This document shows, piece after piece, positions 39,820 to 45,118 of a stretch of 64,000 nucleotides of DNA (positions within the stretch are counted from its first letter, which is position 1; each line of letters opens with the position of its first letter). The notes below the pieces were generated by a model. The model saw only the letters and a list, made by a program, of their open reading frames with translations. It had not been told where the DNA came from and did no database searches. Made by a program: the position numbers and the translations under genes. The stretch comes from Halothiobacillus sp. (GTDB lineage: Bacteria > Pseudomonadota > Gammaproteobacteria > Halothiobacillales > Halothiobacillaceae), in NCBI GenBank assembly GCA_016278265.1, contig JADQCE010000003.1:124001-188000 (forward strand), in the 5' to 3' direction.

Positions 39820-39848
39820 GCTAGGGAAGCGTGCAGACCTTCCCTAGC
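39820..39848. repeat. Hairpin at the comM/cmoB junction resembling the parA-parB repeat
   Basis: Arms GCTAGGGAAG / CTTCCCTAGC with a 9-base loop lie between the converging genes and include the cmoB stop. Read on the minus strand it starts GGCTAGGGAAGGTCTGCAC, closely resembling the start of the parA-parB hairpin (GGCTAAGGAAACTCTGCAC). Confidence 0.7.
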
Positions 39849-40842
39849 CGGGACAGCGGGCCGTAATGATCGCACGCCGGGGCGCGGGCAGGCCTTCGCG
39901 GGTCCGGGAGGGGTCGCCGGGGCCGAGGAAGTCGACCAGCGATTGTCGGTCACCGAACCAGTCGGTGCGGTGCTGCTCTTCCTCGGTGGTCACCGTCACG
40001 TCGACCAGTTCGGGATCGACGAAGCCCATGCGCTTGAGCCAGCCGATGACGGCGGCGGGACTGGGCAGAAACCAGACATTGCGCATGCCGGCGTAGCGAT
40101 CCGCCGGCGTGAGGATGGTGGTGGCATCGCCCTCGACCACCAGGGTCTCGAGCACCAGCTCGCCGCCGGGCCGCAGGCAGGCCTTGAGCTCGCCCAGATG
40201 CGTGAACGGATCGCGGCGGTGGTAGAGCACGCCCATCGAGAAGACGGTGTCGAAGCGCGGCCGCTGCGGAAAGCCTTCCAGTGTGGTGGGCACGATGCCT
40301 GCGCGCGTCTCGCCCAGCAGGTGGGCGACGGCATGAAACTGGGCCACGAACACCCAGGTCGGGTCGACGCCGAGGGCAAAGTCCGCCCCCGCCCCCAGCA
40401 TGCGCCAGAGGTGATAACCGTTGCCACTGCCGATATCGAGCACGCGCCGACCGGCGAGTGGCTGGATCCGATCGACCAAACGATCCCATTTAAGATCCGA
40501 GCGCCACTCGGTGTCGATCGACACGCCGAACAGGTCGAAGGGCCCCTTGCGCCAGGGGATCAGGTCGCGAAGGACATCCTCCAGCCCGGGCACGGCCTCA
40601 TCGGCGCGCGCGGTGATGGCCGGTCGGTCGAGATGATTGATCGCCCCAGCAGGGCGCTCGGGGAGATCGCCGACGGCGGCCAGCCATCGTGGCCAGTCAC
40701 CGTGATTGACCGCGGCCCAGTCGAACGTGCGCCACCCCTCCATCGGCATGCGCCTGGGGAGGTGACCGAGCGCGGCACGGGTCTGGCGGGCGATGCGCTC
40801 GATGCCGAGCGCGACCGACCGCTCCTTTTCGGCATCCCTCAT
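39844..40842 (-). CDS. cmoB: tRNA U34 carboxymethyltransferase CmoB
   Basis: A 332-aa enzyme transferring carboxymethyl from carboxy-SAM to ho5U34. Typical segments are PWRKGPFDLFGVSIDTEWRSD, VLDIGSGNGYHLWRMLGAGA, the VDPTWVF cofactor segment and FSMGVLYHRRDP. It starts 7 bp after the DUF2860 gene and is separated by that gene from cmoA, which makes its cofactor. Confidence 0.95.
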   Translation of the reverse strand: MRDAEKERSVALGIERIARQTRAALGHLPRRMPMEGWRTFDWAAVNHGDWPRWLAAVGDLPERPAGAINHLDRPAITARADEAVPGLEDVLRDLIPWRKGPFDLFGVSIDTEWRSDLKWDRLVDRIQPLAGRRVLDIGSGNGYHLWRMLGAGADFALGVDPTWVFVAQFHAVAHLLGETRAGIVPTTLEGFPQRPRFDTVFSMGVLYHRRDPFTHLGELKACLRPGGELVLETLVVEGDATTILTPADRYAGMRNVWFLPSPAAVIGWLKRMGFVDPELVDVTVTTEEEQHRTDWFGDRQSLVDFLGPGDPSRTREGLPAPRRAIITARCPG

Positions 40843-40849
40843 CGACTGA

Positions 40850-41893
40850 TCAGAACCGGTAGCCCAGGCCGACGGCGAACAGGCCGGTTTCCTGATCGTA
40901 GAATCGGATGTCGGCATCGCGTTCGGACCAGACGCCGTAGGCGTCGACCGACCAGTTCGACCAACCGAAGGGCTCGGCATAGCGCACGCCGGCCACCAGG
41001 CCCATTTCCTTGCCATCGCGGTACTCGTCATAGATCGGCTGACGGGCGTCATAACGATCCATGCCGTAGTAACCGGTCATCGAAAGCGACCAGCGATCGA
41101 TGTTGTAGCGGGCAGTCAGCTGCGGGCGCAGCAGCCAACCACGGTTCGCCGCGCCATCGGCATCCAGGCGGCGGTATTGCACCCCCGGTGTCAGGCTAAA
41201 GCTATCGGTCAGGGCGACCCGGTAATTGAGATCGAAACGATGCTCCGTGCCTTCCCGCTCCAGCAATCGACGCTCGGCGGGCGAGAGTCCCAGCGCCTGG
41301 CCGGAGCGTTCATCGTCGATCTCGCGACGATACAGACGGTAGTCCACCGACAACCCCGTGCCGGCGATGCCCGCCAGTCCCAGGTGCAGGCCGCGCCGAT
41401 CGACATCGGTGGCATCCCGGCGCGTACCGACGACGAACGGGTCCGACCAGACCTCGCTGTCATTGACGGTGACCGGGATCACCCCGGCTGTCAGCAGCCC
41501 GACACCACCCACCCGGTAACGCACACCAAGTTCGACGCCAATTTCCCCGTCGGCCAGGGCGGACCGAGGCGTGCCGGCATAGAGCGACAGCTCGCGCGGC
41601 ACGATGGTGTAGTCGATCTGCCCCAACACCCCCCCAATGGGACGCGTCTCGCGCGATGAAAGGCTGTAAAGGGAATCAATCCGCTTCTGGTCACTGGACA
41701 CGGCCAGATTGGACCGACTCGACATGACACCGATCAGCGGCTGAATCTCGCCCGAGAAACCGGTCTCGCCGGCTATCGGCGAGGCCTGCGTCCCCGTTGC
41801 GAGGAGCAGGCCCAGCGGGGCGATAACCCGAGTAATCCCTCGAATCATGGTGGGTGCAGCGGCGGCGGCAAGGCGTTGTCTAAGGGATGTCAT
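40850..41893 (-). CDS. DUF2860-type outer-membrane beta-barrel protein
   Basis: A 347-aa protein with a signal peptide (about 1-38, ending GTQAS) followed by alternating amphipathic strands and a C-terminal GLFAVGLGYRF with terminal Phe, the OMP assembly signal. Family DUF2860 members occur mainly in marine gammaproteobacteria; function unknown. It is inserted between cmoA and cmoB in the same direction, with a six-copy 7-bp repeat 48 bp before its ATG. The family assignment is from memory of motif layout. Confidence 0.75.
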   Translation of the reverse strand: MTSLRQRLAAAAAPTMIRGITRVIAPLGLLLATGTQASPIAGETGFSGEIQPLIGVMSSRSNLAVSSDQKRIDSLYSLSSRETRPIGGVLGQIDYTIVPRELSLYAGTPRSALADGEIGVELGVRYRVGGVGLLTAGVIPVTVNDSEVWSDPFVVGTRRDATDVDRRGLHLGLAGIAGTGLSVDYRLYRREIDDERSGQALGLSPAERRLLEREGTEHRFDLNYRVALTDSFSLTPGVQYRRLDADGAANRGWLLRPQLTARYNIDRWSLSMTGYYGMDRYDARQPIYDEYRDGKEMGLVAGVRYAEPFGWSNWSVDAYGVWSERDADIRFYDQETGLFAVGLGYRF

Positions 41894-41940
41894 CGGTTCC
41901 GTTCCTGTTGTTCACATGCCACGAAATCGCGATCGTCCGG

Positions 41941-41982
41941 CGTAGGGCGTAGGGCGTAGGGCGTAGGGCGTAGGGCGTAGGG
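41941..41982. repeat. Heptanucleotide tandem repeat, six copies
   Basis: Six perfect copies of CGTAGGG (CCCTACG on the gene strand) 48-89 bp upstream of the outer-membrane protein ATG, within its leader or promoter. Seven is not a multiple of three, but the tract is outside the coding region, so any effect would be on promoter spacing or the untranslated leader. Confidence 0.95.
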
Positions 41983-42039
41983 CGCACAGCATAAGAGTTA
42001 TGGTTCTTTGCGCCATGAGCCGTTCCCCGAACGGGGAAG

Positions 42040-42834
42040 TCAGCCGGTCTTGTCCGTTGTTTTTTTGCATCGTCGCGCCAGCCAGAGGCAGAACCCGTAA
42101 TGGCGCGAGAGCATCACCACCTCGTCGAAGCCGGCTTGCCGCAGGCGGTCCTCGTGGTTGGTGGCCGTCTCGGTGAGCAGCACGTTTTCCAATGCCTGGC
42201 GCTTGCCGGCAATCTCCAGCTCGGAATAACCATTGGCGCGCTTGAAGTCATGGTGAAGCTCGGTCATCAGCGACTCAGCGCCGGGATCGGGCTCGTGGAC
42301 CTTTTCCGCCAGCACCAGCACGCCACCCGGCAACAAGCCATCGTGGAGGCGGGCAATCACGGCATCGCGCCGCGCCGGCTCGACGAACTGCAGCGTGTAG
42401 CCAAGCACCACCATCGAGGCGCGTTCGGGCCTCACCTCGGCGAGATCGGCGCAGACCAGATCGGTGCGGTAGGGCGAGTGGAACGCTGCCAACTGGGCGC
42501 GGGCACGCTCGAGCATGGCTGGCGAGTTGTCCACGCCGATGAGATCGACCCCCGCCGGCGGCGCGTCCATTCCGGCCAGTGCCGAGCGGATCGAGAGCGT
42601 CATCGCTCCCAGCGAACAGCCGAGATCATAGACCCGCGAGTTTGATTGGACGTGCCGGCGGGCGATGGCCGCCACCAGCTCGAGATTGAAGCGATAACCC
42701 GGCACGGAGCGCGAGATCATGTCTGGAAACACCGCTGCCACTGCAGCGTCGAAACGGAACGCGGCCGGTGGCTGCGGGTCGCAGAAGAGATCGTCGCGCC
42801 CGTTTGAGACGGGTTGTTGAGGTGATTCCGGCAT
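42040..42834 (-). CDS. cmoA: Carboxy-SAM synthase CmoA
   Basis: A 264-aa enzyme converting SAM and prephenate to carboxy-SAM for CmoB. The SAM fold is VYDLGCSLGAMTLSIR and IGVDNSPAMLERA; the family YTLQFVEPARRDAVI and DDLFCDP openings are present. The ATG at 42834 is chosen; the in-frame extension (over 300 residues antisense to mnmH) is not real. Confidence 0.95.
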   Translation of the reverse strand: MPESPQQPVSNGRDDLFCDPQPPAAFRFDAAVAAVFPDMISRSVPGYRFNLELVAAIARRHVQSNSRVYDLGCSLGAMTLSIRSALAGMDAPPAGVDLIGVDNSPAMLERARAQLAAFHSPYRTDLVCADLAEVRPERASMVVLGYTLQFVEPARRDAVIARLHDGLLPGGVLVLAEKVHEPDPGAESLMTELHHDFKRANGYSELEIAGKRQALENVLLTETATNHEDRLRQAGFDEVVMLSRHYGFCLWLARRCKKTTDKTG

Positions 42835-42914
42835 GACGGGCTCGAGCGTCCGAGGGACGGAAAGTCTACCGCGGCGAGATGACGACGAACAGGCCCGCCA
42901 AGGCCCACAGGAAA

Positions 42915-44054
42915 TCAGATCGGCGCTTGCGGCCGCAGCCCCCGCGAGGCCAGCTCCTCGGCCACCGCCTCGGGTGGGCCGCTGAAGACGATCCGGTCTT
43001 GCTTGCTGGCCAGCTGGTAGTCGTACATGGGATCGTAGTACTCGACCAGCATCACCCGTATCAGGTCGCGCAGGCCCTGAACATCGTCCTGCCCGTACCA
43101 GGCATCGAGCGCCTCCTCGGCCATGCCGCGCACCTTGGCGTGACGCACGCCGCCGAGGCGCTTGGCCACCCGGTCGATCGCCCCCAGGATGTGCTCGCGC
43201 ACCCGCGCGCTGGCGCCGGCCGCGTCGGTGGCCAGCACGCGTCGGTAACCGGCCTCCAGATCGATGATGTAGTCCTTGAGGCTCTGCTCGACCCGCTCGT
43301 CCAGGGGGCGCTCGATCACCACCAGCGGCGAGAGGCGCATGCGCTCGAACAGGGTCGGCGGCACCAGTCGCGAACCGACCATCTTGCCCTCGTCCTCCAC
43401 CAGGATCGGCTCGTCCGGGGCAGGATGCCGCAGGCGCAGCAAGTCGATCGTGACCTGGTTCTCGAAGTCGATCGGCATGGGCTGCGGTTCCGGCTCGCGA
43501 CCGAAGGCCGAGCCCTTGTGGCGCGCACGCCCCTCGAGGTCGAGATGCCGTTCGAAGCGGAACAGGAACGGCGTCTTGCCCACGCCGGTGCGCCCACCCA
43601 GCATGATCAGCGGCGCGTCGGCCGCCTGGGTTTCCAGTGCGTCGAGCAGAAACCGACGCATGGCCTTGTAGCCCCCGGCGACACGCGGATAGGTGATCCC
43701 CGCCTCCTCGAACAGCATCTGCTGTGTCAGTCGCGAGCGCAGCCCACCACGGAAACAGTAGAGCAGGCCCTCGGGATGGGCCTCGGCGAACGCCTGCCAT
43801 TGCGCCACCCGGCGGGCCTTTTCCTGCGCATCAACCAGCTGGTATCCCAGCGCGATCGCGGCATCCTGGCCGGCCTCCTTGTAACGGATACCGACACGAT
43901 GGCGCTCCTCGTCGGTGAGCAGCGGCCAATTCTCTGCCCCGGGAAACGCGCCCTGTTCGAATTCCACCGGCGCACGCACATCCAGCAGGGGTCGATCCTC
44001 GAGAAAGACCGAGGCAATATCGGTCACGATCGGCAGATCGGCACGCCCGCTCAC
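42915..44054 (-). CDS. mnmH: tRNA 2-selenouridine synthase (SelU/MnmH)
   Basis: A 379-aa two-domain enzyme: an N-terminal rhodanese with [18 protein letters not shown] and the catalytic C100 in [10 protein letters not shown], then a P-loop domain with GGRTGVGKT (153-161). It replaces the sulfur of s2U34 with selenium via a geranylated intermediate. The start overlaps the selD stop (ATGA), so selenophosphate supply and use are coupled. Confidence 0.95.
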
Positions 44055-45118
44055 GCCAAGCCACCCTCGTGGAAGACCACGCGCGGGCCCTCGTTCTCCT
44101 CGAGCAGGCGTCCGATGGAAGCGGCATGCAACCCGGCGTCGGCCAGGAGCGAGGCAACCGCCTCGGCCGCCTCGGGACGGACCGACACCAGCAGCCCACC
44201 AGAGGTCTGCGGATCACAGACGATCGCCCGGGCGAATGCGCTCATCTCGCCGAGATCGCGTCCGTAGCTGGCGAAATTCCGTCCCGTGCCACCCGGCATC
44301 TGGCCGGCGGCGATGTAGTCGGCGACCGCCTCGATCAGCGGCAGGCTCGCCACGTCGATCTCGGCGCGCAGACGGCTGCCGCGCACCAGCTCGAGCAAAT
44401 GCCCGGCCAGACCGAAGCCGGTGACATCGGTCATCGCAGTGACCGCCTCGATCGTCGCCAGCTCCCGACCAATCCGATTCAGGCGCGTCATGCTCTGCGG
44501 GGCGAGATCGGCGTGGGCGGCGTCAAGCACGCCGTTTTTCTGAGCCGTGGTCAGCACGCCGACCCCGAGCGGCTTGGTCAGGAAGAGATGATCACCGGCG
44601 CGCGCGGTGTCGTTGCGTTTGAGCCGGTCGAGCTCGACGCGACCGGTCACGGCCAGGCCGAAGATGGGTTCGGGCGCGTCGATCGAGTGCCCGCCGGCCA
44701 GCGTGATGCCGGCATCAAAGCAGGCACTGCGTCCGCCGTCGATCACCGCGGCGGCGACCTCCGGACCCAGTTTGTCGATTGGCCAGCCGAGGATGGCGAT
44801 GGCGAGCAACGGTTGCCCGCCCATGGCATAGACGTCACTGATGGCGTTGGTCGCCGCGATGCGGCCGAAGGTGAACGGGTCGTCCACGATCGGCATGAAG
44901 AAGTCGGTGGTCGAGATCACCGCGCTGCCGTCGCCGAGATCGAAGACAGCGGCATCGTCGCGCGAGTCATTACCCACCAGCAGGCGAGGATCGGGCTGGA
45001 TCGGGGCCAGGCTCGAGGCGAGCATGTCGTCGAGCAGGGCCGGGGCGATCTTGCAGCCGCAACCCGCGCCGTGACTGTATTGGGTCAGTCGGATATCAGT
45101 TGCTTTGGCTTGAGGCAT
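44051..45118 (-). CDS. selD: Selenophosphate synthetase
   Basis: A 355-aa ATP-dependent enzyme making selenophosphate from selenide. The active-site region is [12 protein letters not shown] with cysteine (C20) in the position that is selenocysteine in some species, followed by the [11 protein letters not shown] and STTDFF ATP-binding motifs. Because mnmH follows directly, the certain use here is selenouridine in tRNA; no selA/selB is in the window. Confidence 0.95.

Follow-up and report, generated by a model that had tools for sequence, protein, structure and literature searches.

A perfect array of the heptamer CGTAGGG precedes a gene for an outer-membrane beta-barrel protein of the DUF2860 family, which itself lies between cmoA and cmoB in a genome of the genus Guyparkeria. 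We read the array as a young leader repeat, private to its species, whose most likely effect, if it has any, would be a graded down-tuning of the barrel gene and cmoB, a reading that we hold tentatively. The window, that is, the whole 64 kb stretch of DNA that was analysed, comes from a genome of 2.73 Mb in 23 contigs, which protein matches and named loci (L015-L017) place in Guyparkeria, halophilic sulfur-oxidising Gammaproteobacteria. The features on which the argument turns are as follows, in window coordinates.

39844-40842, minus strand: cmoB, 7 bp past the barrel gene (TIGR00452 above cut-off, E 1.6e-116)
40850-41893, minus strand: DUF2860 family outer-membrane beta-barrel protein gene, 347 aa (PF11059, E 1.7e-70)
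41902-41906, minus strand: putative ribosome-binding site AGGAA, within the conserved ACAACAGGAA block (leader alignment)
41912-41914, minus strand: in-frame TGA stop between the array and the barrel ATG (read from the sequence)
41939-41984, no strand assigned: perfect heptamer array, (CGTAGGG)6.57 on the plus strand and (CCCTACG)n on the coding strand of the downstream genes
41988-41993, minus strand: weak putative -10, TATGCT (conserved AT-rich block in the alignment)
42014-42028, minus strand: conserved non-coding block GGGGAAC-GGCT-CATG, upstream of the putative -10 (leader alignment)
42040-42834, minus strand: cmoA (TIGR00740 above cut-off, E 5e-72)

The heptamer array and its origin

The six copies of CGTAGGG that the initial annotation placed at 41941-41982 are exact and belong to a perfect array of 46 bp (6.57 copies, 41939-41984) that scores highest among the 33 tandem-repeat entries for the window; 47 bases lie between the six-copy block (41941) and the ATG of the DUF2860 gene (41893). 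The array sits about 166 kb into a contig of 479 kb, far from the contig ends, is covered by no listed open reading frame of at least 80 codons, and was found at a single site by an exact two-unit search of the whole genome. Exact arrays of at least 21 nt were absent from 50 first-order Markov copies of the window, and the array counts as a tandem repeat above chance, placed in a leader by way of its putative promoter. A sample of the same genome (20 stretches, 400 kb in total) held nine exact arrays that reached 21 nt, two of them heptamers (3.0 and 3.14 copies), and every one of the nine falls within an open frame of 100 codons or longer; across sample and window, the array described here is the only one outside long open frames. 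The longest exact short repeat of the sample, CCGAGA in 9.17 copies (L052, 1731-1785), lies inside an open frame of 1942 codons, which its 6-bp unit keeps in frame. A flank 17-mer scan of viral_contigs returned three stretches, none with cmoA, the barrel gene or cmoB, and these are taken as chance matches.

Along the coding strand, a GGGAAC-CATG block is followed by an AT-rich block ending in TATGCT, the array, the ACAACAGGAA ribosome site and the ATG. When the leaders of eight species (that of the window and seven others) were aligned, the GGnAC and CATGG columns were invariant in all eight, and the counterpart of TATGCT was TAAGCT in G004, G005 and G010; the AT-rich block falls in the lowest 1.6% of 26-bp GC windows. 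Because a sigma-70 consensus scan from cmoA to the barrel gene found no promoter, the promoter here is one that we infer; if it is correctly placed, the first repeat unit would contain the transcription start, at about position 41980. Most likely, the array lies at the start of the leader, between the weak putative -10 and the ribosome site, which bears out the initial annotation in so far as that saw a slippage-type repeat ahead of an outer-membrane protein gene. The on/off switch also proposed there is excluded in its frame-type form, since translation of the array into the barrel protein is barred by the in-frame TGA at 41912-41914. A switch in RNA structure at the ribosome site was rejected as well: folding of the predicted leader with 0-15 units gave an openness of 0.43-0.46 at the ribosome site and of 0.37-0.53 at the start codon, with no dependence on copy number. 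Copy number does alter the length of the leader and the count of GGG tracts on the template strand.

The closest relatives record the state before expansion. In G001, G009 and G002, TGTGCG is followed by one unit-like remnant of 8 bases (ACCCATAA, ACCCACGT and GCCCGTGC) and then by the common leader, and the window leader is 35 columns longer at this point, 35 bp being five units; two units occur in none of the seven other aligned species. The surplus of exactly five units, together with the single remnant in relatives, shows that a single unit expanded on the spot in this lineage, presumably by slippage, the route to which the initial annotation pointed. Judged by the alignment, the repeat is private to the species of the window. 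The barrel gene of G009 (L008) carries, in its signal-peptide region, a 12-bp in-frame tandem repeat of about three copies, CAGGTTATGGCC, encoding MAQV repeats; the 5' end of the gene therefore grows repeats in a second species.

Heptamer arrays also occur elsewhere in the genus. At least one site of the form GGGN4 x4 was found in 7 of 11 Guyparkeria genomes. A separate sample of stretches from G009 is biased, one of them having been deliberately put over a known array. Several of these sites are heptamer arrays with different units at unrelated genes (for example L022, L023, L024 and L033). GGGGTCA arrays are found in G009, upstream of what we take to be a pstS-like gene, and in G010, at the end of a presumed ligA-like gene; at L033 (1497-1561), 9.29 copies of GGGGTCA run over the stop codon of a ligA-like gene with the G-rich strand antisense. 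GGGTGAC arrays stand beside presumed rfb genes in G004 and G005. Those of L023 and L024 (about 1496-1531, 5.14 copies in both) are flanked by what appears to be an rfbD-like gene on one side and, on the other, by a small gene whose product resembles a four-helix bundle; that of L024 overlaps the start of this small open reading frame. In G010, 8.14 copies of GGGCAGA occupy the start of contig C198 (L121, 1-57) and degenerate GGGCAGA units the end of contig C225 (L122, about 2501-2570); these repeats may break the assembly. In the genome of the window, GGGN4 x4 occurs as one array only, and with this single site a dispersed repeat family is ruled out.

A barrel gene between cmoA and cmoB

Membership of the barrel protein in DUF2860 is clear (PF11059, 237.9 bits against a Pfam cut-off of 22.9), and PF11059 is matched by all four aligned orthologues. 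A search for solved structures related to it by sequence returned none, and an AlphaFold model built from four sequences reached a mean pLDDT of 27.8 and was set aside.

cmoB matches were obtained in 23 of 27 genomes, and the counts below are based on the 19 strong loci alone (those with an E of 3.2e-68 or lower); the weak matches of G006, G007, G031 and G033 were taken as other methyltransferases and left out, and G003, G030, G032 and G034 gave no match. At 10 of the 11 strong loci outside Guyparkeria, cmoA adjoins cmoB and the barrel gene is absent, which upholds the initial statement that the two genes are normally neighbours. The remaining outside locus, in a sister genus (G011), has a barrel-cmoB pair, with cmoA on a different contig and the stop of the barrel gene overlapping a GTG that is a possible cmoB start. 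Conversely, the order cmoA-barrel-cmoB was found in all eight Guyparkeria genomes with a strong cmoB match, seven of them having a barrel-cmoB gap of 7 bp and one a gap of 10 bp; from three partial genomes of the genus (64-87% complete), neither the barrel gene nor cmoA nor a strong cmoB match was obtained. The available flanks of four more distant strong DUF2860 loci (L101, L105, L106 and L107) contain neither cmoA nor cmoB.

The tight placement of cmoB behind the barrel gene thus stands as first described, and so does the separation of cmoA from cmoB in the window; the separation is, however, a trait of the whole genus and unlinked to the repeat, which is not genus-wide and is ruled out as its cause. 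The barrel-cmoB pairing appears, from these gene orders, to predate the genus, and it did not come about through the repeat. Upstream, 44051-45118 and 42915-44054 are presumably selD-like and selU/mnmH-like genes, so that 39844-45118 would form a run of wobble-U34 modification genes (selD-selU-cmoA-barrel-cmoB) broken by a gene for an outer-membrane protein. The same five-gene order is found in L015, L016 and L017. Among the papers searched, none treats cmoA and cmoB jointly with an outer membrane and an operon. Quite apart from the repeat, the DUF2860 gene that separates cmoA from cmoB across the genus is a pairing that calls for an explanation and can be tested.

Possible effects of the array

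Under the graded down-tuning that we tentatively favour, and that the analysis makes plausible for the barrel gene and cmoB, the heptamer would have multiplied by slippage, beginning as a single unit in the DUF2860-cmoB leader. The array would open the predicted transcript, immediately past the putative -10, with six GGG tracts on the template, where it may lengthen the untranslated leader and hinder early elongation; more copies would then give less barrel RNA and, by co-transcription, less cmoB RNA, with the reading frame unswitched and access to the ribosome site predicted to be unchanged. This proposal draws on the 35 bp gained at a single place in a leader that can be aligned elsewhere, on the placing of the array, flanked by an AT-rich block and a ribosome site that are both conserved, and on the tight barrel-cmoB spacing in two genera. 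It also draws on base composition: GGGCGTA x6, the G-rich strand, serves as template for the downstream genes and satisfies the G3N1-7 x4 quadruplex rule with six GGG tracts where four are needed, so that a G-quadruplex might form at the array. Two experimental precedents point the same way, namely the dose effect of repeats at hmw1A (PMC8262952; described below) and, in the part of a second paper available to us, the lowering of T7 output by G-rich template-strand motifs downstream of the start (PMC7341879). Against down-tuning stand the lack of a consensus promoter between cmoA and the barrel gene, a modest G4Hunter score (1.29), the frequency of quadruplex motifs in this GC-rich DNA (5 in the window and 15 in the 400 kb sample), the flat response of the folded ribosome site to copy number, six copies against the 11-24 or so of hmw, and a null result for similar heptamers (PMC4692102; see below). 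An extension in which the array acts as a repeat-length rheostat at the head of the barrel-cmoB transcript, co-varying outer-membrane composition and cmo5U34 modification and hence codon reading, is in our judgement very improbable.

Alternatively, the array could be a recent expansion by neutral slippage, tolerated in an untranslated leader and leaving expression unaffected. We regard this as a serious contender, although it too is held only tentatively. Its restriction to one species, the insensitivity of RNA folding to copy number and the other Guyparkeria arrays, with other units at unrelated genes, all fit such an origin; recurrent birth of heptamers in the genus suggests a general slippage bias and keeps neutrality a strong rival. 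It accounts less well for an array that is the sole exact one of at least 21 nt outside long open frames in the sample and window, and that falls exactly between promoter-like and ribosome-site blocks that are both conserved, although position alone is no proof of function.

It is unlikely, in our view, that selD-selU-cmoA-barrel-cmoB forms one transcript, with the array as a spacer inside the operon that hardly affects initiation. Neither a terminator nor a consensus promoter was found between cmoA and the barrel gene, and the five-gene order is kept in the three loci named above; with no terminator, cmoB could be supplied by read-through regardless of the repeat. The conserved non-coding blocks and the AT-rich dip upstream of the array speak against such a spacer, as does the pair in G011, which exists without cmoA and indicates that barrel-cmoB can be driven alone.

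Somewhat less likely still is a contingency locus, at which frequent changes in copy number would make barrel expression differ among sibling cells. The perfection of the 46 bp array, its outer-membrane target, the difference of one to six units between species and a precedent in Haemophilus influenzae (PMC2651432; see below) would suit it, but six copies are few beside hmw arrays and the genome has a single such site. Moreover, according to the accessible sections of the report on (G3T)8 in E. coli, that repeat is 354 times less mutable with the G-rich strand as template (PMC7023247), the orientation found here, and transcription-linked quadruplex instability was rejected on the same measurement.

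What the array means depends on whether it varies. If it does, a free-living sulfur oxidiser, and not a host-adapted bacterium, would harbour an hmw-like leader repeat, which would also be a candidate link between a slippage repeat and tRNA wobble modification; if it does not, the array would be a clear case of neutral repeat birth. The clean contrast of one versus six units among sister species eases reporter work on copy number.

Comparison with known heptamer repeats

One near parallel is the class of GGG heptamers of Xanthomonas and Nostoc, which, as the available text of Rehm et al. describes (PMC4692102), favour positions within 50 bp upstream of an open reading frame, on the antisense strand. 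As there, the present unit is GGG plus four nucleotides, repeated at least four times between co-directional genes; (GGGCGTA)6 has at least four intact G tracts and a quadruplex motif and lies antisense, about 45-47 bp from the ATG. It departs from that class in its unit, GGGCGTA rather than GGGNATC or GGGGA(C/T)T, and in its number, one site against 89-186 per genome with one consensus. For those heptamers, the same portion of that paper gives no regulatory role as found and judges phase variation unlikely.

A second likeness is to the (AACAACC)1-7 repeat of H. influenzae, which stands 13 bp ahead of a TonB-receptor gene and for which the excerpt available gives the unit counts of four strains as 1, 1, 7 and 6 (PMC2651432). 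Both are heptamers a few bases upstream of an outer-membrane gene, in one versus six or seven units; there the variation is among strains of one species, whereas here it is known between species only.

Another near parallel is hmw1A/hmw2A (ATCTTTC) of nontypeable H. influenzae. In the passages accessible to us, these arrays run to about 11-24 copies, and both their variation in length and their effect of dose have been proven; the hmw1A heptamers immediately follow the P2 -10 within the 5' UTR, and RNA and protein fall as copies are added (PMC8262952). The array described here differs in its six copies and in its G-rich unit, that of hmw not being G-rich. It shares with hmw a 7-bp unit upstream of a surface protein gene and outside the coding frame, and a position in the 5' leader directly after the -10, which in Guyparkeria is a putative one.
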